From the IMG/VR virus record IMGVR_UViG_3300046171_000020, positions 1-35,103 of that record: a stretch of 35,103 bases of DNA; one strand, 5' to 3'. The translations under genes were made by a program, and so were the position numbers. The DNA comes from a virus. The notes under the pieces are model-generated. The model searched no databases and was not told the origin of the DNA. It was given only the letters and a program-made list of their open reading frames with translations. Below are positions 46 through 8,835 of the stretch, one piece after another. Position 1 is the first letter of the stretch. Every line of letters begins with the position of its first letter.

Positions 46-108
46 TCGTTTGTTACTATCGAATCTCAGGTCTTGATAGGCAGAATCAATTGTACTGGTG
101 TGACTGTT

Positions 109-301
109 GTGTGCTAGAGGCTACCACAACGGCCCACACTCTTGTACTTTTGTCAACTCTTTTTTTCTCTTGACATCTCGTGTCATCTGTGGTTGCGCCC
201 TCAGGTTCACTCAGGTTTTTCTCGTGTTGTCAAGTGTTGACACGAGCAGCGATGTGTGCTAGGGAAAATCTTTTGTTGACAAATGGGCTGGGGTGTGCTA
301 G
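109..301. repeat. Three copies of a GTGTGCTAG element
   Basis: The nine-base core GTGTGCTAG occurs at 109-117, 254-262 and 293-301, each followed by AGG or GG. The second and third copies lie downstream of a perfect TTGACA (237-242, 276-281), with exactly 17 bases between TTGACA and the TAG. They therefore sit where a -10 box would be, although TAGGGA and TAGAGG are poor -10 sequences. They may be activator-dependent promoters or protein-binding sites. Function unknown. Confidence 0.5.
177..246. repeat. Operator-like CTCGTGTCA repeats with inverted repeat
   Basis: CTCGTGTCA appears at 177-185. A near copy with a 3-base insertion, CTCGTGTTGTCAA, lies at 221-233, and the inverted copy TTGACACGAG at 237-246. 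The last two form a dyad whose centre, 228-242, is a perfect TGTCAA-GTG-TTGACA inverted repeat. Clustered dyads and direct repeats between divergent transcription units suggest binding sites for a regulator or replication initiator. No such protein is identified in the window. Confidence 0.45.
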
Positions 302-407
302 AGGGGACGGGGGAGGGCGTAGCGTCTCTAGTAAATCTATAGTAGGCACTCCCGTACATCAAAAGTAAAACTAGAAAAACCACAGTAAAGCTAGTGCTTA
401 CTAACAT
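207..407 (-). CDS. Possible small membrane protein in the control region
   Basis: This 66-residue minus-strand reading frame starts at an ATG preceded by AGAGG with six bases between. It opens with a strongly hydrophobic stretch (residues about 5-20), then a Pro/Ser/Thr-rich section and a Cys-containing tail, which would fit a small inner-membrane or secreted protein. Against it, the frame overlaps the repeat clusters, no convincing minus-strand promoter lies upstream, and no family is recognised. It may be chance. An overlapping plus-strand frame at 180-368 has less support. Confidence 0.25.
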   Translation of the reverse strand: MLVSTSFTVVFLVLLLMYGSAYYRFTRDATPSPVPSSTPQPICQQKIFPSTHRCSCQHLTTREKPE

Positions 408-466: not shown

Positions 467-495
467 TTGACAAACACAGAAAAATATGCTATAAT
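467..495 (+). promoter_or_regulatory. Perfect sigma70 promoter of the packaging operon
   Basis: TTGACA (467-472), a 17-base spacer and TATAAT (490-495), with TG one base before the -10 as in extended -10 promoters. All twelve consensus positions match. It lies 42 bases upstream of the first structural-arm gene. The same architecture recurs at 6405-6433, also with the sequence TATGCTATAATG around the -10. Confidence 0.9.
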
Positions 496-501
496 GATAG
501 A

Positions 502-533
502 GTATTCTTTAGAAAGACTAGAAGGTAAAATAC
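502..533 (+). promoter_or_regulatory. Leader hairpin with ribosome-binding site in the loop
   Basis: GTATTCTTTA (502-511) can pair with TAAAATAC (526-533), apart from a bulged C, enclosing a loop that carries GAAGG, the only ribosome-binding candidate before the ATG at 538. The same two half-sites occur in the leader at 6458-6482. The pairing is read directly from sequence; a regulatory role is inference. Confidence 0.45.
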
Positions 534-537
534 ACAC

Positions 538-954
538 ATGGATATTGATAATGAGCCATCTACAGAACCTAAAGCGCCACTAAAGCGCAAGAGAGGTAGA
601 CCTAGAAAAACAGATGTAGTCTCTAAATCTAAAGGATCTAGAGGTGCTGTAGGTAGACCTAAAGGTGATGCAGCGATTATCAATGAGTACAAAGCTCGTA
701 TGTTGGCTTCACCCAAGTCACGCAAAGTAATGGATGCTATCTTCGATGCAGCTTTAGACGATGAACACAAGAATCAAGCGGCAGCATGGAAACTAGTGAT
801 GGATCGCATGCTACCCTTGAGTTACTTTGAGAAAGATAGCGCCTCTGGTAGATCAGCGGTATCCATAACAATCTCAGGTATCGGTAGCGGAGCAGTAGAG
901 ACCGATGTGACACCTAATGATCCTATAGAAGGAGAGTATACACAGGATGTTTAA
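538..954 (+). CDS. Putative terminase small subunit
   Basis: A 138-residue protein at the head of the packaging arm. Its N-terminal third is very basic and holds two AT-hook-like motifs (KRKRGRPRK near residues 17-25, and GRPKG near 40-44), which bind the minor groove of AT-rich DNA. A helical region (about residues 48-95) follows, then an acidic tail. A small DNA-binding protein next to terL is typical of the terminase small subunit, which recognises the packaging site and loads the motor. The call rests on position and DNA-binding character; a transcriptional regulator is the alternative. The stop overlaps the next start by 8 bases. Confidence 0.5.
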   Translation: MDIDNEPSTEPKAPLKRKRGRPRKTDVVSKSKGSRGAVGRPKGDAAIINEYKARMLASPKSRKVMDAIFDAALDDEHKNQAAAWKLVMDRMLPLSYFEKDSASGRSAVSITISGIGSGAVETDVTPNDPIEGEYTQDV

Positions 955-1300
955 GTACTTTACCAAGGACGAATTTGTGTGTCAAGCCACAGGCGAGAAT
1001 GAGATTGAAGAAGAATTGATTTTTGCACTAGATGAGCTTAGAGAGCACTGTGGTTTTCCTTTTGTAATCACAAGTGGCTATAGATCACCTGACCACCCTA
1101 TTGAACTAGGGAAAAACACTCCCGGCACACATGCACAAGGTATCGCAGCGGACATAGCTGTGTCCTCTGGTTTACAACGGTACACTATAGTAAAGAATGC
1201 TATTAAGTTAGGCTTTACTGGGATTGGTGTAGCCGGAGGCTTTGTGCATGTAGACATTAGGGCTACTCCAGATGCACCTGTAATGTGGACATATAGTTAA
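947..1300 (+). CDS. M15-family peptidase, probable endolysin
   Basis: A 117-residue protein matching the compact peptidase M15_3 fold (D-Ala-D-Ala carboxypeptidase / L-Ala-D-Glu peptidase type) that cuts peptidoglycan cross-links. The SGYRSP motif is at residues 43-48, GTHAQGIAADI at 60-70 supplies zinc ligands H62 and D69, and GFVHVD at 98-103 supplies H101. The length is that of a minimal catalytic domain. No signal peptide is seen, so export would need a holin (candidate at 8836). Its place between the terminase subunits, far from that holin, is unusual. It may act in lysis or in cell-wall digestion during entry. Confidence 0.82.
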   Translation: MFKYFTKDEFVCQATGENEIEEELIFALDELREHCGFPFVITSGYRSPDHPIELGKNTPGTHAQGIAADIAVSSGLQRYTIVKNAIKLGFTGIGVAGGFVHVDIRATPDAPVMWTYS

Positions 1301-1443
1301 TGAACACTAACAGAGAATACAAGACAACCTTAGCACAACAAGAAGATCTAAATTGGGACGGTGATCCTGAGTTAGACGTAGAGTATGAGTGTGAGGAAGA
1401 AAAAGACCTAGATGAGTATGTAGTCAAGTATTTCTATGACTAG
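1300..1443 (+). CDS. Small acidic protein, unknown
   Basis: A 47-residue ORF starting with an ATG that overlaps the preceding TAA (TAATG) and ending 8 bases inside terL, so translational coupling is likely. It is strongly acidic, with many Glu and Asp and one Cys (residue 31). No family is recognised. The perfect fit into the only gap between two genes supports it being real. An acidic partner of the basic small-terminase candidate would be plausible but is speculation. Confidence 0.6.
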   Translation: MNTNREYKTTLAQQEDLNWDGDPELDVEYECEEEKDLDEYVVKYFYD

Positions 1444-2686
1444 CCTTAACATACAACTGCTTGACTGGCAAAAGCAAGTCTGGGCTGACGACACTAGGTT
1501 TAAGATTGTAGCTGCCGGTAGACGTACAGGTAAGTCCAGACTAGCAGCATGGATGTTGATTGTCAATGCTCTACAGGCAGACAAAGGCCACGTGTTCTAT
1601 GTAGCTCCAACACAGGGACAGGCCAGAGACATCATGTGGCAAACACTATTGGAGTTGGCGCACCCCATTGTATCCTCTAGTCACATAAACAACTTACAGA
1701 TTAAACTGGTCAACGGTGCAACCATTAGCCTCAAAGGTGCCGATAGACCTGAGACTATGCGTGGTGTGTCACTGAAGTTTCTAGTGATGGACGAGTACGC
1801 CGACATGAAGCCGGAGGTATTTGAGCAGATCCTTAGACCTGCCTTGGCTGACCAAAAGGGTGGTGCACTGTTCATCGGTACACCTATGGGCCGTAATCAC
1901 TTCTACGACCTGTACAAGTACGCAGAGCTAGAGGACGATGAGTCCTATCAGTCATGGCACTTCACAAGCTACGACAATGAGCTACTAGACCCAGATGAGA
2001 TTGACCTAGCTAAGAAGTCTATGTCCTCCTATGCCTTTAGACAAGAGTTTATGGCATCCTTTGAGGCCAGAGGCTCAGAGATGTTTAAGGAGGAGTGGGT
2101 CAAGTTCGGTGAGACACCGGAGATAGGTGACTACTACATTAGCATTGACTTAGCTGGCTTTGAGGACGTAAGTAAGAAAAGAACTAAAAACTCTCGACTA
2201 GACGAATCAGCAATTGCAGTAGTGAAAGTCAACGAAAACGGCTGGCACTTAGAGAACATCATATACGGTAGATGGGACTTAGCGGAGACAGCTAGAAAGA
2301 TCTTTGAGGCTGTGCGGGACTACAGGCCTATCAGTGTAGGCATAGAGCGTGGTATCGCTAAGCAGGCTGTGATGTCACCGTTGATGGACTTAATGAAGCA
2401 GCGTGGTAGATTCTTTGTTGTAGAGGAGCTAACCCACGGCAACAAAAAGAAGACAGACAGAATCATGTGGGCCTTGCAGGGTAGATTTGAAAACGGTCAG
2501 ATTACTCTAGGCAGGGGGGAGTGGAACAGTAAGTTCTTAGATCAACTGTTTCAGTTTCCTGACGTATTGACACATGATGACCTTGTGGATGCCTTTGCGT
2601 ACACAGATCAACTGGCTAAGGTAGCCTACAGTTATGACTTTGAGATAGACGATCTTGAGGTCTTGGACGTTGTAACAGGATATTAA
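1436..2686 (+). CDS. terL: Terminase large subunit (packaging ATPase-nuclease)
   Basis: A 416-residue DNA-packaging motor. The N-terminal ATPase has a Walker A AAGRRTGKS at residues 26-34, Walker B FLVMDE at 115-120 with catalytic E120, and a GTPMG coupling motif at 148-152. The C-terminal RNase H-like nuclease shows D238 (SIDLA), E304 (GIERG) and an acidic HDDLVDAF block at 380-387. The length is near the compact end of the family. It hydrolyses ATP to drive DNA through the portal and cuts concatemers. It overlaps the upstream acidic ORF by 8 bases and is followed after one base by a run of small basic genes. Confidence 0.95.
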   Translation: MTSLNIQLLDWQKQVWADDTRFKIVAAGRRTGKSRLAAWMLIVNALQADKGHVFYVAPTQGQARDIMWQTLLELAHPIVSSSHINNLQIKLVNGATISLKGADRPETMRGVSLKFLVMDEYADMKPEVFEQILRPALADQKGGALFIGTPMGRNHFYDLYKYAELEDDESYQSWHFTSYDNELLDPDEIDLAKKSMSSYAFRQEFMASFEARGSEMFKEEWVKFGETPEIGDYYISIDLAGFEDVSKKRTKNSRLDESAIAVVKVNENGWHLENIIYGRWDLAETARKIFEAVRDYRPISVGIERGIAKQAVMSPLMDLMKQRGRFFVVEELTHGNKKKTDRIMWALQGRFENGQITLGRGEWNSKFLDQLFQFPDVLTHDDLVDAFAYTDQLAKVAYSYDFEIDDLEVLDVVTGY

Positions 2687-2687
2687 C

Positions 2688-2909
2688 ATGGCAACAAGGG
2701 CAGGAACTAGAGCACGATCACAGGGTGCTAAACGTAAACCTAAGTCAAGAGTAAATGAAGCCGGTAACTACACCAAACCCACTATGCGTAAGAACCTATT
2801 TAATAAAATCAAAGCAGGTGGCAAAGGTGGCTCCCCCGGACAATGGTCAGGGAGAAAAGCCCAGATGCTGGCAAAGCAATACAAAGCCAAAGGAGGAGGC
2901 TACCGATGA
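2688..2909 (+). CDS. Small basic Gly/Lys-rich protein
   Basis: 73 residues, with 20 Lys/Arg against a single Glu and a GGGYR C-terminus. It starts right behind terL, and its TGA overlaps the next ATG (ATGA). I recognise the type, a small basic protein found between terminase and portal in marine podoviruses, but no biochemical function is known to me. The charge suggests nucleic-acid binding, perhaps packaged in the head. It is the first of six such proteins around the portal gene. Confidence 0.75.
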   Translation: MATRAGTRARSQGAKRKPKSRVNEAGNYTKPTMRKNLFNKIKAGGKGGSPGQWSGRKAQMLAKQYKAKGGGYR

Positions 2910-3070
2910 AAGGTGTACCTCACTATACCAGAGAAGGCAAGGAGTGGAAAGGAAACACTCACAAAATGCCAAACGGACACTTGCATACGCATAAGTCCCA
3001 CGGAAAAACAAGCCAGCGTTTGTTCCATTTCAAAGAACTGAGCAAGACTGCACAAAAGAGAGCTAAGTAA
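2906..3070 (+). CDS. Small His/Lys-rich protein
   Basis: A 54-residue ORF beginning at an ATG that overlaps the upstream stop and preceded by AGGAGG eight bases away. Its TAA shares a base with the next ATG. The central segment (residues 21-34) is rich in His and Lys around MPNG and HTHKSHG, followed by a Phe/Lys helix ending KKxxQKRAK-like. The MPNG..HTH..SKRLFHFK pattern recurs in marine phage genomes near portal genes. Function unknown; metal or nucleic-acid binding is possible. A longer same-frame start at 2843 would overlap the previous gene and lacks comparable support. Confidence 0.7.
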   Translation: MKGVPHYTREGKEWKGNTHKMPNGHLHTHKSHGKTSQRLFHFKELSKTAQKRAK

Positions 3071-3321
3071 TGGCTTTAGCTAAATCACAGAAGTCTCTAA
3101 AAAACTGGACTAAGCAAAAGTGGCGTACAAAGTCAGGTAAACCTAGCACTCAAGGCTCTAAAGCTACAGGTGAACGCTACTTGCCAGAAAAAGCAATCAA
3201 GTCTTTATCCGCTAAAGAGTACGCAGCCACCACTAGAAAGAAAAGAAAAGACACAAAGGCCGGTAAACAGTTCAGTAAGCAGCCCAAGCGCATTGCTTCT
3301 AAGACTAAACGCTCACGTTAA
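3070..3321 (+). CDS. DUF5872-like basic protein
   Basis: 83 residues, extremely Lys/Arg/Ser/Thr-rich. It resembles the DUF5872 family: LKNWTKQKWRTKSGKPS near residues 10-26, RYLPEKAIKSLS near 36-47, and a basic tail. The family's function is unknown; it occurs in phages, giant viruses and aquatic metagenomes. The start overlaps the previous stop (TAATG), placing it in the terL-portal transcript. Charge and position suggest a DNA-associated virion or early-infection protein. Confidence 0.75.
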   Translation: MALAKSQKSLKNWTKQKWRTKSGKPSTQGSKATGERYLPEKAIKSLSAKEYAATTRKKRKDTKAGKQFSKQPKRIASKTKRSR

Positions 3322-3332
3322 GGGTAAACAGT

Positions 3333-5354
3333 ATGGATTATGGCGACAACGACGTTCTGTCGAGTGACGAACACCTAGAAAACTGGGTAATGGCTAAGTG
3401 TGACTCATGGCGAGACCACTATGAGTCTAATTACGCAGAAAGATTTGAAGAATTCTACCGTTTATGGCGTGGAATCTGGGCAGCAGAGGACATGGAGCGC
3501 AAAAGTGAGCGTTCACGTATCATTTCCCCTGCATTACAGCAGGCTGTAGAGTCTAGTGTAGCTGAGATTGAGGAGGCCACCTTTGGTAGAGGCAAATATT
3601 TTGATATTACGGACGAACTTGGCGATGCTGAGTCGCAAGATGTCGTGTATTTACGGCAAAAACTGCACGAGGACTTTGAAAAGACACAAATTCGCAAGCA
3701 AGTAGGCGAATGTCTCATTAACAGTGCAGTATTTGGAATGGGTGTGGCTGAAGTAGTGCTGGAGGAAGTCAAAGAGATGGCTCCTGCTACACAACCCATC
3801 ATGGACGGTCAGCTACAGGCAGTAGGTGTGAACGTCACAGACCGCACAGTAGTCAAGCTGCGCCCTGTACTGCCTCAAAACTTCCTAATTGACCCTGTGG
3901 CTACCTCTATACAGGACGCCATAGGCGTTGCTGTGGACGAGTTTGTGCCTCGACATAAGGTACAACAGCTACAGGAAGAAGGTGTCTATAGGGACGTGTA
4001 CGTAGGTCAGGCGGCTAGTGATTATGACCTAGAGCCAGATCAAGACCTTACCAGCTACGACGAAGACAAAGTACGCCTAACTAAGTACTACGGTCTTGTA
4101 CCTCGCTATCTCTTGGAGATTGGTGAAAAGGAAGCAATGCTTGCCGATGATGAGGACATTGCTGATATTGAAGTAGAGGAACCGGAGAAAGACGAAGATG
4201 CAAGCTATTACGTCGAAGCTATTGTGGTTGTGGCTAATGGAGGCATCCTGCTAAAGGCAGAGGCAAATCCATACATGATGCAGGATCGTCCTGTAGTTGC
4301 CTTCCCTTGGGATGTGGTTCCCGGTAGGTTCTGGGGCCGTGGTGTGTGCGAGAAGGGCTACAACAGCCAGAAAGCACTTGATACAGAGCTTAGAGCACGT
4401 ATTGATGCCTTAGCCCTAACTGTCCATCCAATGATGGCTATGGACGCTACACGGCTTCCTAGAGGCTCTAGACCAGAGGTACGCCCCGGTAAGATCATCT
4501 TGACCAATGGTGATCCTAAGACTGTGCTCAATCCATTTAACTTTGGTCAAGTCAGTCAGATTACCTTTGCACAGGCAGCGGAACTACAAAAGATGGTTCA
4601 GATGTCTACAGGTGCTATTGACTCCGCTGGTATCCCCGGCAGTATAAATGGTGACGCTACGGCTGCTGGTATCAGTATGTCCCTTGGTGCAATCATCAAG
4701 CGCCACAAGCGTACTCTGATTAACTTCCAGCAGTCCTTCTTGATTCCTTTTGTTAAGATGGCTGCTTGTCGTTACATGCAGTTTGACCCAGAGAACTACC
4801 CTGTCAAAGACTACAAGTTTAACACTACGTCTACACTAGGCATCATTGCTCGTGAGTACGAAGTCACACAGCTTGTGCAACTACTGCAAACCATGCCAGC
4901 AGATTCTCCGCTGTACAACACGCTGATCCAGTCAATTATTGACAACATGAACCTGTCTAATCGTGAAGAACTAATGGCTAAGCTATCTCAGGCAGAGCAA
5001 GCGTCACAGCCTACGGAAGAACAGCAACAGATGCAACAACAGGTTGCACAGGCACAGATGGCCTTCCAGCAGTCACAGACAGCGGCACTCAACGGTCAAG
5101 CACAAGAGTCTTCCGCTAGAGCGCAAAAGATTGCCGTAGAGACACAGCTTGCACCACAGGAGCTACAGATTGACCAGATTAAGGCAGTCACAGCTAACCT
5201 GAAGGCAGGAGACCAAGACGACAAAGAGTTTGATCGTCGTATGAAGATTGCCCAGACATTCTTGAAAGAGAAAGAGATTGATCTAAAAAATCAACCTGTG
5301 CAACCCATGCAACCCATGCAACCCCAGCAACCCCTCCAACTGAGACAAGGATAG
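3333..5354 (+). CDS. Portal protein (head-tail connector)
   Basis: A 673-residue protein in the expected place after terL. Portal rings form the DNA gate at one capsid vertex and the docking site for terminase and tail. The N-terminus (about 1-90) carries aromatic/acidic helices and the motif SPALQQAVES. The middle has DPV/DEFVPRHKV and PWDVVPGRFWGRG blocks, and residues about 420-460 an IDSAGIPGSINGDAT-like segment typical of large podoviral portals. From about residue 555 it is a Gln/Ala-rich coiled coil ending in repeated PMQ triplets. A weak GGGTAAACAG lies before the ATG. Portal identity rests on size, order and these blocks. Confidence 0.85.
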   Translation: MDYGDNDVLSSDEHLENWVMAKCDSWRDHYESNYAERFEEFYRLWRGIWAAEDMERKSERSRIISPALQQAVESSVAEIEEATFGRGKYFDITDELGDAESQDVVYLRQKLHEDFEKTQIRKQVGECLINSAVFGMGVAEVVLEEVKEMAPATQPIMDGQLQAVGVNVTDRTVVKLRPVLPQNFLIDPVATSIQDAIGVAVDEFVPRHKVQQLQEEGVYRDVYVGQAASDYDLEPDQDLTSYDEDKVRLTKYYGLVPRYLLEIGEKEAMLADDEDIADIEVEEPEKDEDASYYVEAIVVVANGGILLKAEANPYMMQDRPVVAFPWDVVPGRFWGRGVCEKGYNSQKALDTELRARIDALALTVHPMMAMDATRLPRGSRPEVRPGKIILTNGDPKTVLNPFNFGQVSQITFAQAAELQKMVQMSTGAIDSAGIPGSINGDATAAGISMSLGAIIKRHKRTLINFQQSFLIPFVKMAACRYMQFDPENYPVKDYKFNTTSTLGIIAREYEVTQLVQLLQTMPADSPLYNTLIQSIIDNMNLSNREELMAKLSQAEQASQPTEEQQQMQQQVAQAQMAFQQSQTAALNGQAQESSARAQKIAVETQLAPQELQIDQIKAVTANLKAGDQDDKEFDRRMKIAQTFLKEKEIDLKNQPVQPMQPMQPQQPLQLRQG

Positions 5355-5358
5355 ACTG

Positions 5359-5505
5359 ATGGTAGTCACACGCACAGAGCTAATGGAAATTGTAGACCAA
5401 GTTAACAAGAAGTTTGAAGAACTAGAAAAAGTTATTAAAGAAGTAAAAGCATGTAACTGTGCTACAGACAAGAAAACTACAAAAACAGTTAAGAAGGCGT
5501 CGTAA
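5359..5505 (+). CDS. Small coiled-coil protein with Lys-rich tail
   Basis: 48 residues filling the gap after the portal gene. The first 32 residues form one amphipathic helix with heptad-like Leu/Ile/Val spacing. A Cys-Asn-Cys follows at 32-34, then a Lys/Thr-rich tail (TDKKTTKTVKKAS). No family is recognised. The exact fit between two genes (stop one base before the next ATG) supports it. It could oligomerise through the helix and bind DNA or the portal with its tail; both ideas are inference. Confidence 0.6.
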   Translation: MVVTRTELMEIVDQVNKKFEELEKVIKEVKACNCATDKKTTKTVKKAS

Positions 5506-5506
5506 C

Positions 5507-5803
5507 ATGGCAACACGACGGGCCAAGCCTATACGCAAGACTACAGGCAAAGGTGGAAACTATCGCTCTACTAAGTCTGGCGCAGGCATGACTGAGAAAG
5601 GCGTAAAAGCGTATAGGGCCGCTAATCCCGGTAGTAAGCTCAAAACTGCTGTTACAGGTAAAGTTAAAGCAGGGAGTAAAGCGGCTAAACGCCGTAAATC
5701 TTACTGTGCTAGGTCAGCAGGACAACTAAAAAGAAGTTCCGCTGAAACTAGGAACGACCCTAACTCTAGAATTAGGCAGGCTAGACGCAGGTGGAAATGT
5801 TAA
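5507..5803 (+). CDS. DUF6321-like basic protein
   Basis: 98 residues. It resembles the DUF6321 family: a GKGGNYRSTKSGAGMT stretch near residues 14-29, NPGSKLKTAVTGKVK near 40-54, and a C-terminal NSRIRQARRRWKC. The function is unknown. I chose the ATG at 5507, directly after the preceding stop; an in-frame upstream extension to 5459 would overlap the 48-residue ORF. Net charge is strongly positive, with two central Cys-containing turns. It belongs to the basic gene set flanking the portal and may coat or condense DNA. Confidence 0.75.
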   Translation: MATRRAKPIRKTTGKGGNYRSTKSGAGMTEKGVKAYRAANPGSKLKTAVTGKVKAGSKAAKRRKSYCARSAGQLKRSSAETRNDPNSRIRQARRRWKC

Positions 5804-5822
5804 TTGCCTCAAGGAGATAATT

Positions 5823-5933
5823 ATGCCCGGATACGGTATGGGATACGGTAAAAAAGCAATGAATGGCAAGAAGAAAAAGAAGCCAATGATGAATGGTACA
5901 AAGAAAAAGATGGGTACTCGTAGAGGCCGATAA
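5823..5933 (+). CDS. Protamine-like 36-residue peptide
   Basis: A tiny ORF preceded by AAGGAG with eight bases before the ATG, its TAA sharing a base with the next ATG. The product has ten Lys and three Arg, no acidic residue, and otherwise mostly Gly, Met, Asn and Tyr: a PGYGMGYG head, a run of five Lys, and a GTRRGR end. Composition resembles DNA-condensing protamines. The good ribosome-binding site and coupled junctions argue it is translated. Function unknown. Confidence 0.65.
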   Translation: MPGYGMGYGKKAMNGKKKKKPMMNGTKKKMGTRRGR

Positions 5934-6397
5934 TGCTAATTGAATCAGTTGCAGCTGCTTCTGCCATCTTGTCGAGTCTGAATGGTCTGATAAAGACAGC
6001 TAATGAGTCTGGGCAGGGTATCCAGCAACTTATGGGTACGATTAGCGACTTTGGAGAAGCCCTAACAGATTTTGAAGTAGAGCGTAAGTCTAGTACCTTC
6101 AAGCCCCTGAGTCAGAGCGAGATCTTAAAGCTCACTCAGATTAAGAAAAGCTATGAGAGATACTGGAAGGACGTACACGATATATTATTAGTGGCAGATC
6201 CAGAGACTTTGGAGGCGTTCAAAAAAGCTAAGGCAGAACAGGAGCATGCTCGACAGGAGCACCTGCGCCTTATAGCTCGTAAAAAGAAAGCAAGAGACAA
6301 GCTGATACAACAGGTGTCAGTGGGTGCTCTTGTGTTTGTTCTGGGCGCTGCAATTGCAATTGGTGCATTATCTATCGTTATAAAAACATTTAGTTAA
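5933..6397 (+). CDS. Tail-anchored membrane or virion protein, unknown
   Basis: 154 residues. Residues 1-50 are helical with hydrophobic faces, 95-124 form a long, very charged Lys/Glu/Arg helix, and 128-150 are one hydrophobic span followed by KTFS, so the C-terminus would lie in a membrane. No family is recognised. It is the last gene before the second promoter and closes the transcript that begins at 467. Candidates are a minor lysis component or an ejected membrane protein. Confidence 0.7.
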   Translation: MLIESVAAASAILSSLNGLIKTANESGQGIQQLMGTISDFGEALTDFEVERKSSTFKPLSQSEILKLTQIKKSYERYWKDVHDILLVADPETLEAFKKAKAEQEHARQEHLRLIARKKKARDKLIQQVSVGALVFVLGAAIAIGALSIVIKTFS

Positions 6398-6404
6398 ATA
6401 ACAC

Positions 6405-6433
6405 TTGACAAACAGTCAAAAGTATGCTATAAT
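6405..6433 (+). promoter_or_regulatory. Perfect sigma70 promoter of the capsid operon
   Basis: TTGACA (6405-6410), a 17-base spacer and TATAAT (6428-6433), with TG one base before the -10. It lies in the 86-base gap between 6397 and 6484 and repeats the architecture of the 467-495 promoter, including TATGCTATAATG. It should give the scaffold and major capsid genes extra transcription. Confidence 0.9.
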
Positions 6434-6457
6434 GTAAAGGTACATTAGTGTACACAA

Positions 6458-6482
6458 GTATTCTTTAACAAAGGTAAAATAC
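6458..6482 (+). promoter_or_regulatory. Leader hairpin, second copy
   Basis: GTATTCTTTA (6458-6467) can pair with TAAAATAC (6475-6482), leaving a seven-base loop ACAAAGG that contains the ribosome-binding site for the ATG at 6484. The half-sites are identical to those at 502-533 although the loops differ, so the stem rather than the loop looks conserved. Confidence 0.5.
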
Positions 6483-6483
6483 A

Positions 6484-6750
6484 ATGACTCAAGAGTTAGA
6501 AACTTATTTCAACAATTACTTTGCTATGTTTCGTTCAGAAGGCTGGAAGCAGCTAATCTCTGACTTAGGCAGTAATGTTGCACAGATCAACTCAGTAGAA
6601 CTGACTACGGATAACGATAACTTGAACTTTCGCAAAGGTCAGTTAGCTATCCTAGCAACCATATTGAATCTTGAAACACAGATTGACAACGCCCATGCTG
6701 AAGCAGAATCAGAAGAAGACACTGAGGAAGCTCTAGATGAGGCTGTTTGA
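6484..6750 (+). CDS. Conserved small acidic phage protein, unknown
   Basis: 88 residues. The N-terminal half has a YFNNYFAMFRSEGWKQLI-like aromatic helix (about 8-25). FRKGQLAIL with NLETQID follows (about 49-69), then a Glu/Asp-rich tail. The pattern is one I associate with head-gene clusters of marine podoviruses, with no known role. It is the first gene behind the 6405 promoter and hairpin leader, so it is probably made in quantity with scaffold and capsid. An assembly factor is plausible. Confidence 0.7.
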   Translation: MTQELETYFNNYFAMFRSEGWKQLISDLGSNVAQINSVELTTDNDNLNFRKGQLAILATILNLETQIDNAHAEAESEEDTEEALDEAV

Positions 6751-6961: not shown

Positions 6962-7010
6962 AGAACCTTCATAATAAAGCTCTCCACAATACTAAGGTAC
7001 GGAGTTAATA

Positions 7011-7790
7011 ATGGCTAAGATTATTGAACCTGAGCGTCAACAGGATAACCAAGACGATCAACAACTAGAAATGTTTGCAGAGGAACAGCAGGAAACCCCT
7101 GAAATACAGGAACCTGAGATACCTGATAAATACAGAGGTAAGTCCGCTGAAGAACTTGTACAGATGCACCAAGAAGCTGAGAAGCTATTGGGCCGACAGA
7201 GTTCTGAAGTAGGTGAGCTACGTAAGGTTGTTGATACGTATATCCAGACTCAACTCACTCAAGATCAACAAGAAGCACCCCAACAAGTCGAAGAAGTAGA
7301 TTGGTTTACAGACCCCGATAAGGCTGTAGACAGGGCAATTCAGAACCATCCTAAGATTAAGGAAGCTGAAGCACTCACTCAACAATATAAGCACAGTACT
7401 GCAATGTCAGAGCTACAACGTAAGCACCCTGACATGCAGCAGATACTACAAGACGCTAACTTTGCTGAGTGGATCAAAGCATCTAAAGTCAGGACTAGAC
7501 TGTTTGTATCGGCAGACCAGCAGTACGATCACGAAGCCGCTGATGAGTTATTTAACTTATGGAAAGAGCGACAGAATATTGTACAGCAGACTGCACAGGT
7601 TGAGCAACAGGCTCGAAGGCAGACAGCTAAAGCTGCTTCTACTGGTAACGCCAGTGGTAGCTCTGAATCAGCACCTAAGAAAATCTATAGACGCGCAGAC
7701 ATTATTAACCTTATGAAAACCGACCCTGATCGCTACGCTGCTCTACAACCAGAAATTATGAGAGCGTATGCGGAAAAACGGGTCAGATAG
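7011..7790 (+). CDS. Capsid scaffolding protein
   Basis: 259 residues directly upstream of the major capsid gene, the usual place for scaffold. Gln/Glu-rich and largely helical: an acidic, Pro-containing N-terminus (1-45), an IPDKYRGKSAEELV entry to a coiled coil (to about 85), a middle domain with DWFTDPDKAVDRAI, and a basic C-terminal segment (about 220-259) of the kind that contacts the inner capsid surface. Scaffolds direct procapsid assembly and then leave. Sequence identity among scaffolds is low, so the call is from composition and order. A GGAG site precedes the ATG. Confidence 0.8.
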   Translation: MAKIIEPERQQDNQDDQQLEMFAEEQQETPEIQEPEIPDKYRGKSAEELVQMHQEAEKLLGRQSSEVGELRKVVDTYIQTQLTQDQQEAPQQVEEVDWFTDPDKAVDRAIQNHPKIKEAEALTQQYKHSTAMSELQRKHPDMQQILQDANFAEWIKASKVRTRLFVSADQQYDHEAADELFNLWKERQNIVQQTAQVEQQARRQTAKAASTGNASGSSESAPKKIYRRADIINLMKTDPDRYAALQPEIMRAYAEKRVR

Positions 7791-7791
7791 T

Positions 7792-7807
7792 ATATCTTAG
7801 GAGATAT
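7792..7807 (+). promoter_or_regulatory. Hairpin over the capsid ribosome-binding site
   Basis: ATATCT (7792-7797), loop TAGG, AGATAT (7802-7807). The strong AGGAGA ribosome-binding site of the capsid gene is partly in the loop and partly in the right arm. The stem is short and AU-rich, so it would open easily. Confidence 0.35.
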
Positions 7808-8788: not shown

Positions 8789-8820
8789 ACTGGGGGCTGC
8801 TACGGTGGCCCCTAGTTTTA
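8789..8820 (+). terminator. Rho-independent terminator after the capsid gene
   Basis: ACTGGGGGC (8789-8797) pairs with GGCCCCTAGT (8807-8816 region) to give a GC-rich stem of about nine or ten pairs with one or two G-U pairs and a loop around GCTACGGT, followed by TTTTA. It would end most transcripts from the 6405 promoter and favour capsid over downstream tail genes, which would be read by read-through. Confidence 0.85.
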
Positions 8821-8835
8821 TTAAGGTATCTTAAT

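Follow-up and report, generated by a model that had tools for sequence, protein, structure and literature searches.

Hairpins predicted to start at the first transcribed base and to enclose the Shine-Dalgarno sequence follow two late promoters of an uncultured phage

Why would a phage genome place, ahead of two of its genes, a perfect sigma70 promoter followed each time by the same pair of short complementary half-sites? The genome is that of IMG/VR virus record IMGVR_UViG_3300046171_000020, positions 1 to 35,103 of which form the window analysed here (35,103 nucleotides, nt); IMG/VR lists the record as a virus contig, it is without a close cultured relative, and its phage family is uncultured and apparently marine. 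We find that both promoters lead into a short leader predicted to fold into a hairpin that holds the Shine-Dalgarno (SD) sequence within its stem. Comparison of related leaders shows that this predicted hairpin is conserved, that its position relative to the promoter is fixed and that compensatory changes have left the SD paired.

Two perfect promoters and their leader hairpins

Promoters P1 (467..495) and P2 (6405..6433), both on the plus strand, as are the two leaders and the first gene after each, share TTGACA-17-TATAAT, a TG extension and TATGCTATAATG, and match the sigma70 consensus at 12/12 positions. A scan of the window for TTGACA-16/18-TATAAT returned no other 12/12 match, against an expectation of ~0.03 such sites from first-order Markov resamples. 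A first, sequence-only reading of this DNA had named these two as the only perfect sigma70 promoters, with shared spacer and TG extension; its positions are exact and there is no third such site in the window. Host-type promoters are sensible here, since no RNA polymerase match was found among the long open reading frames (ORFs) scanned in the window. Further promoter-like repeats lie upstream of P1 (window 104-304): TTGACA-17-TAGGGA (near 236) and TTGACA-17-TAGAGG (near 275) share TGTGCTAG, and another copy of GTGTGCTAGAGG lies near 109.

Both promoters are followed by GTATTCTTTA...AAGGTAAAATAC and then by a start codon. In the whole window there are just two mismatch-free copies of GTATTCTTTA, at 502-511 and 6458-6467, and two of GGTAAAATAC, at 524-533 and 6473-6482. 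The sequence-only reading had described the same half-sites after both promoters, with identical arms and different intervening sequence, and this is borne out, each arm being unique to the two leaders. The module duplication is confirmed, the two leaders having the same architecture.

Taking the predicted +1 as 7 nt after the -10 hexamer, transcription would start at 502 and 6440. The leader-1 hairpin (502..533) begins at the predicted +1 with an outer stem of GTAT (502-505) and ATAC (530-533), and its inner stem, CTTTAG (507-512)/CTA-G-AAG, contains the SD sequence AAGG (522-525). Leader 2 carries a second, upstream hairpin that the earlier reading had missed: hairpin 1 (HP1, 6440..6453), GTACA-TTAG-TGTAC (GTACATTAGTGTAC), is the 5′-terminal hairpin at the predicted +1 (6440), and is followed by the SD hairpin of this leader, hairpin 2 (HP2, 6458..6482), with an outer stem GTAT(T)/(A)ATAC, an inner stem CTTT/AAGG or CTT(T)/(A)AAG and its SD AAGG at 6471-6474.

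This fold departs from the one first proposed, in which the SD was exposed in a loop. The best-supported fold places both SDs (522-525, 6471-6474) in the inner stem. The UUUA/UAAA inner stem of the earlier proposal has a mean pairing probability of 0.06, whereas that of the SD stem in a single register is 0.32, and it is the less probable of the two in 45/52 leaders. We rejected it for this low probability and because it is missing from the GTATCTTAA...TTAAGGGAATAC clade. Nor is the module a small RNA, but a cis-acting 5′ leader; a search of the window against Rfam gave 0 matches at gathering score.

Conservation and promoter register in related phages

Scans of viral contigs yielded several hundred loci, which represent part of all IMG/VR copies. 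Leaders were re-collected through anchoring on the downstream protein, with no hairpin filter applied; many of the anchored loci were fetched by protein similarity and some loci of gene 1, which encodes a 138-amino-acid (aa) protein, entered via pattern scans. In this protein-anchored, unfiltered set the hairpin was present in 36/38 distinct gene-1 leaders and in 86/99 distinct leaders of gene 2, which encodes an 88-aa protein. Across 277 loci scanned the architecture preceded just these two genes.

Members of the window's clade carry almost the same leader-2 sequence, GTATTCTTTAACAAAGGTAAAATAC, even in the loop. Divergent clades carry GTATCTTAACTAATTAAGGGAATAC, GTATCTTAGACACTAAGGGAATAC, GTATTCTTAACAATAAGGTAAAATAC or ATATTCTTGACAACCAAGGTAAAATAT before the 88-aa gene and GTATTCTTAGGTACTAAGGTAAATAC, GTATCTTAAAGAATGTTAAGGTAAATAC and others before the 138-aa gene, with loops that vary in length and sequence, and what stays constant across clades is the outer GUAU/AUAC, an inner CUU.../...AAG holding the SD and a mainly 3′-sided bulge. 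Further divergent leaders place the SD in new stems, namely ACUUG-UCC...GGA-GAAA-CAAGU in L337/L338, GGA-GUUC-UCC in L290 and L285, CUUUAG-UGAA-UUAGAG in L339 and CCCU-AAGA-GGGG in L280, the stem of L281 being likewise replaced. In nearly all relatives the SD is paired in a local helix, with compensatory change.

The position of the stem relative to the promoter is equally regular. In 36/36 gene-1 leaders GTAT follows the -10 hexamer at a distance of exactly 6 nt, across 20 different six-base discriminators, and HP1 does so in 45/45 of the leaders carrying it, its fifth pair being A-U, U-A or unpaired in relatives. Leaders lacking HP1 have the SD hairpin at the predicted +1 or one base later, mostly with one extra A-U pair, apart from a few with an uncertain -10 assignment; in L057/L141 HP1 is cleanly gone and HP2 stands exactly at +1. 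Counting from the -10 box, the first paired base is nucleotide seven in nearly all leaders, with variable sequence in the six before it, and from this fixed 6-nt spacing the transcripts are predicted to have no single-stranded 5′ tail.

Covariation and the strength of the stem evidence

The search descriptor left the fourth inner pair free, and this pair was nevertheless standard in 42/43 distinct hairpins, as A-U, U-A, G-C or G-U (Fisher p 2e-11, with kinship among sequences ignored). A stem-only alignment of 13 distinct combinations was compared with shuffled controls and slid registers; 92% of its cells were paired and its covariation score was 0.184, versus 0.066 when shuffled (0 of 500) and ≤0.070 in slid registers. 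Window-type leader 1 was aligned in a bulged register, so that this row leans towards pairing. Double changes fall on different branches: U-A to A-U arose at least three times over both genes, the L131 clade has changed its fifth pair from A-U to G-C, and L102 has exchanged an outer G-C for A-U on both sides as well as an inner U-A for G-C. SD pairing at 15 °C was 0.74, compared with 0.55 when the upstream part was shuffled (76 related leaders, Wilcoxon p 2e-9).

The complementary changes, the outer double change of L102 and the replaced SD stems together argue for selection on the stem. The sequence-only reading had hinted at such selection and is supported, in that both leaders keep the hairpin while paired bases of the inner stem, and in one case of the outer stem, have changed in a compensatory way; the covariation check in relatives that it had named was run and found paired substitutions, with few independent events.

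A number of observations weigh against this interpretation. On the trees the fourth pair changed independently only twice for gene 1 and once for gene 2, which is not enough for a sign test, and the pairs conserved most strongly are invariant and uninformative. The SD hairpin is weak (folding energy at 37 °C, -1.5 to -5 kcal/mol), the hairpins are mostly no more stable than shuffled sequence, and other folds compete once the coding sequence is included. Thermodynamic z-scores of single leaders lie near zero and were dropped as evidence, being uninformative. The start sites 502 and 6440 are themselves predictions from promoter spacing, and over the whole window SD pairing did not differ between plus- and minus-strand gene starts (p 0.67). 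The leaders of L286/L287 are short and without such a hairpin, and L288 has only a small SD-first stem.

In the divergent relatives L286, L287 and L288 an SD-like AAGG/AAGGAG falls within the six-base stretch that follows the -10 box, and the predicted transcript would therefore be very short-leadered and without an SD. A genome-wide contrast between hidden SDs of late plus-strand genes and open SDs of early minus-strand genes had also been considered, and is absent in the window.

Proposed function and alternatives

The reading we favour is that the 5′-terminal, SD-embedding hairpin caps the mRNA end and gates initiation, which, judged from comparative sequence, is an even call. A 5′-terminal stem hinders pyrophosphate removal by RppH and RNase E entry and stabilises mRNA (PMC3997798), and an SD in a helix lowers 30S binding in T4 mRNAs (PMC3014915). 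Each late promoter would deliver an mRNA that is paired from its first nucleotide on and whose SD lies inside the stem. In the ribosome-free state the hairpin would leave no single-stranded 5′ tail for pyrophosphohydrolase/RNase E decay and would hide the SD, 30S binding would melt the weak AU-rich stem, and the ribosome itself would then shield the 5′ end, because in the single-hairpin form the SD is ~20-30 nt from that end. The net effect would be stable late mRNAs on which initiation at the first cistron is damped and gated. In leader 2 the jobs would be split, with HP1 serving as the 5′ cap and HP2 as the SD gate. It is from these considerations that we infer mRNA stabilisation and translational gating, and stabilisation of the mRNA or timing of its translation by the leaders, as first proposed, would be plausible. 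A bolder version, which we hold only tentatively, is a 'hairpin-or-ribosome' 5′ cap, in which end protection and ribosome binding would be mutually exclusive, one or the other would always block the 5′ end, and the stem would have been repeatedly re-invented in different sequence.

Other functions for the same elements are less probable. A temperature- or condition-sensitive translational switch of the RNA thermometer type, its SD hidden in the cold and open in the warm with stability incidental, would draw on the AU-rich stem around the SD, on a predicted stability that rises strongly from 37 to 15 °C and on the fourU thermometer known in a prophage lysis gene, SPbeta blyA (PMC10586365). We regard it as unlikely, as there is no four-U run opposite the SD, melting by heat is expected of any weak hairpin and so is not diagnostic, and both HP1 and the exact start of the stem at +1 would be left unexplained. 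If the leaders were translational operators for a single trans-acting protein, of phage or host, that coordinates expression of the first late gene and the head operon, this would account for an architecture found before just two genes in 277 loci and for the conserved asymmetric 3′ bulge (GUAA or GGA). Loops that are free in length and sequence and divergent clades that swap both stems are hard on a sequence-specific binder, and with no candidate protein identified this seems quite improbable.

Another candidate for the 5′ arm, TATTCTTTAACA, is a boxA antitermination signal, the site of NusB/S10; HP1 would then stand where boxB is expected. E. coli rrn boxA is TGCTCTTTAACA, which TATTCTTTAACA resembles, and TCTTTAACA is near-invariant in the window's own leader-2 clade. 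Leader 1 has TCTTTAGAAA, and other clades have TCTTAGGTAC, TCTTAAAGAA, TCTTGACAAC, ATCTTAGACA or ACTTGTCCAT, yet pairing with the SD side persists. The idea, suggested by the window's clade alone, was dropped after the divergent clades had been seen, TCTTTAACA being confined to one leader-2 clade, and we consider it very improbable. The remaining explanation is that there is no functional RNA structure, and that what was inherited by descent is a promoter duplication whose initial transcribed sequence is fixed, or else a DNA operator. Weak folding and few independent compensatory events would favour this. The distance between the half-sites varies, unlike in a DNA operator with fixed helical phase, leader 2 of the window's clade has its GTAT arm downstream of HP1 and not at +1, and the complementary changes would be otherwise unexplained; we think it improbable.

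If the 5′-terminal SD hairpin does cap and gate these mRNAs, a leader of ~35 nt could couple mRNA stability directly to ribosome occupancy. It would offer a testable rule for the late leaders of an abundant uncultured phage family, a stem from the first transcribed base with the ribosome-binding site inside, for which natural variants with and without HP1, with swapped pairs or with replaced stems are ready-made tests.

Downstream genes and other gene starts

Leader 1 precedes a gene (538..954) for a basic protein of 138 aa with a KRKRGRP motif, a putative small terminase subunit by position only; it had no PHROG match and, in Pfam, only a sub-threshold AT-hook. An endolysin-like gene (947) and the large terminase gene (1436) follow. 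The conserved 88-aa protein (6484..6750) is encoded by the first gene of the head operon, ahead of a Zn-ribbon-like ORF, a putative scaffold gene (7011), labelled so by position only, and the major capsid gene (7813); it had no match in PHROG, Pfam or cultured phages. The genes therefore fit the earlier proposal that the leaders serve packaging and capsid genes, the 138-aa gene standing before the endolysin-like and large terminase genes and the 88-aa gene opening the head operon. A prophage search for the host returned nothing but phage contigs that had been binned with unrelated metagenome-assembled genomes; family contigs L277-L280 lie inside such genomes labelled Sphingobacteriales, Verrucomicrobiales and Flavobacteriales, probably through mis-binning.

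Further structures were seen at other gene starts. Before the major capsid gene, at 7790-7807, an SD hairpin ATATCT-TAGG-AGATAT is kept in most relatives; in the L297/L303 clade it reads AGTACTT-AGG-AGGTACT, with several compensatory changes, and it is lost in the L005 and L080 groups. Its conservation suggests that hairpins holding the SD may be more widespread in the family. Before the putative scaffold gene, at 6980-7005, an SD-complementary CTCC...GGAG is conserved upstream in nearly all relatives, and before the holin gene (8836), at 8818-8835, TTAAG-GTAT-CTTAA has its SD in the 5′ arm and partly covarying variants in relatives. Among strong promoters of relatives on the strand opposite the late genes (L096, L132, L140, L156, L158), several have CA-rich, unstructured leaders with SD pairing of 0.05-0.26, unlike the two late leaders.

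Comparison with known leaders

No description of this leader was found in the open-access literature, and we compared it with systems that share one or other of its traits. Phage T7 phi10 (gene 10) likewise yields a late capsid-operon mRNA with a hairpin at +1 and an SD near the 5′ end, but T7 has a polymerase of its own and a hairpin that is strong, GC-rich and separate from the SD, whereas in the phage studied here a sigma70 promoter of host type leads into a weak hairpin enclosing the SD; of the two leaders, leader 2 with its HP1 and HP2 comes closer to T7. E. coli stem-loops of the ompA/papA type are likewise paired at the 5′ end, which is expected to impede RppH/RNase E entry (PMC3997798), but an SD is not known within their stem, and the stability of the present leaders is something we infer. 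In T4 the SDs of gene e, soc, 49 and I-TevI lie in a hairpin beside a late promoter, an arrangement kept across related phages, and in the case of gene e and of I-TevI the late promoter is located within the 5′ arm, which lets late transcripts escape the hairpin (PMC3014915); here, in contrast, the stem begins with the predicted +1 itself and transcripts from the promoter would retain it. The fourU element of SPbeta blyA is similarly a short phage hairpin of the 5′ untranslated region whose U-rich arm pairs the SD (PMC10586365), but four consecutive U opposite the SD are missing here, the arms being CUUU, CUUA or CUUG. Belonging to no named family, the leader appears to combine a 5′-terminal stem with sequestration of the SD in ~35 nt.

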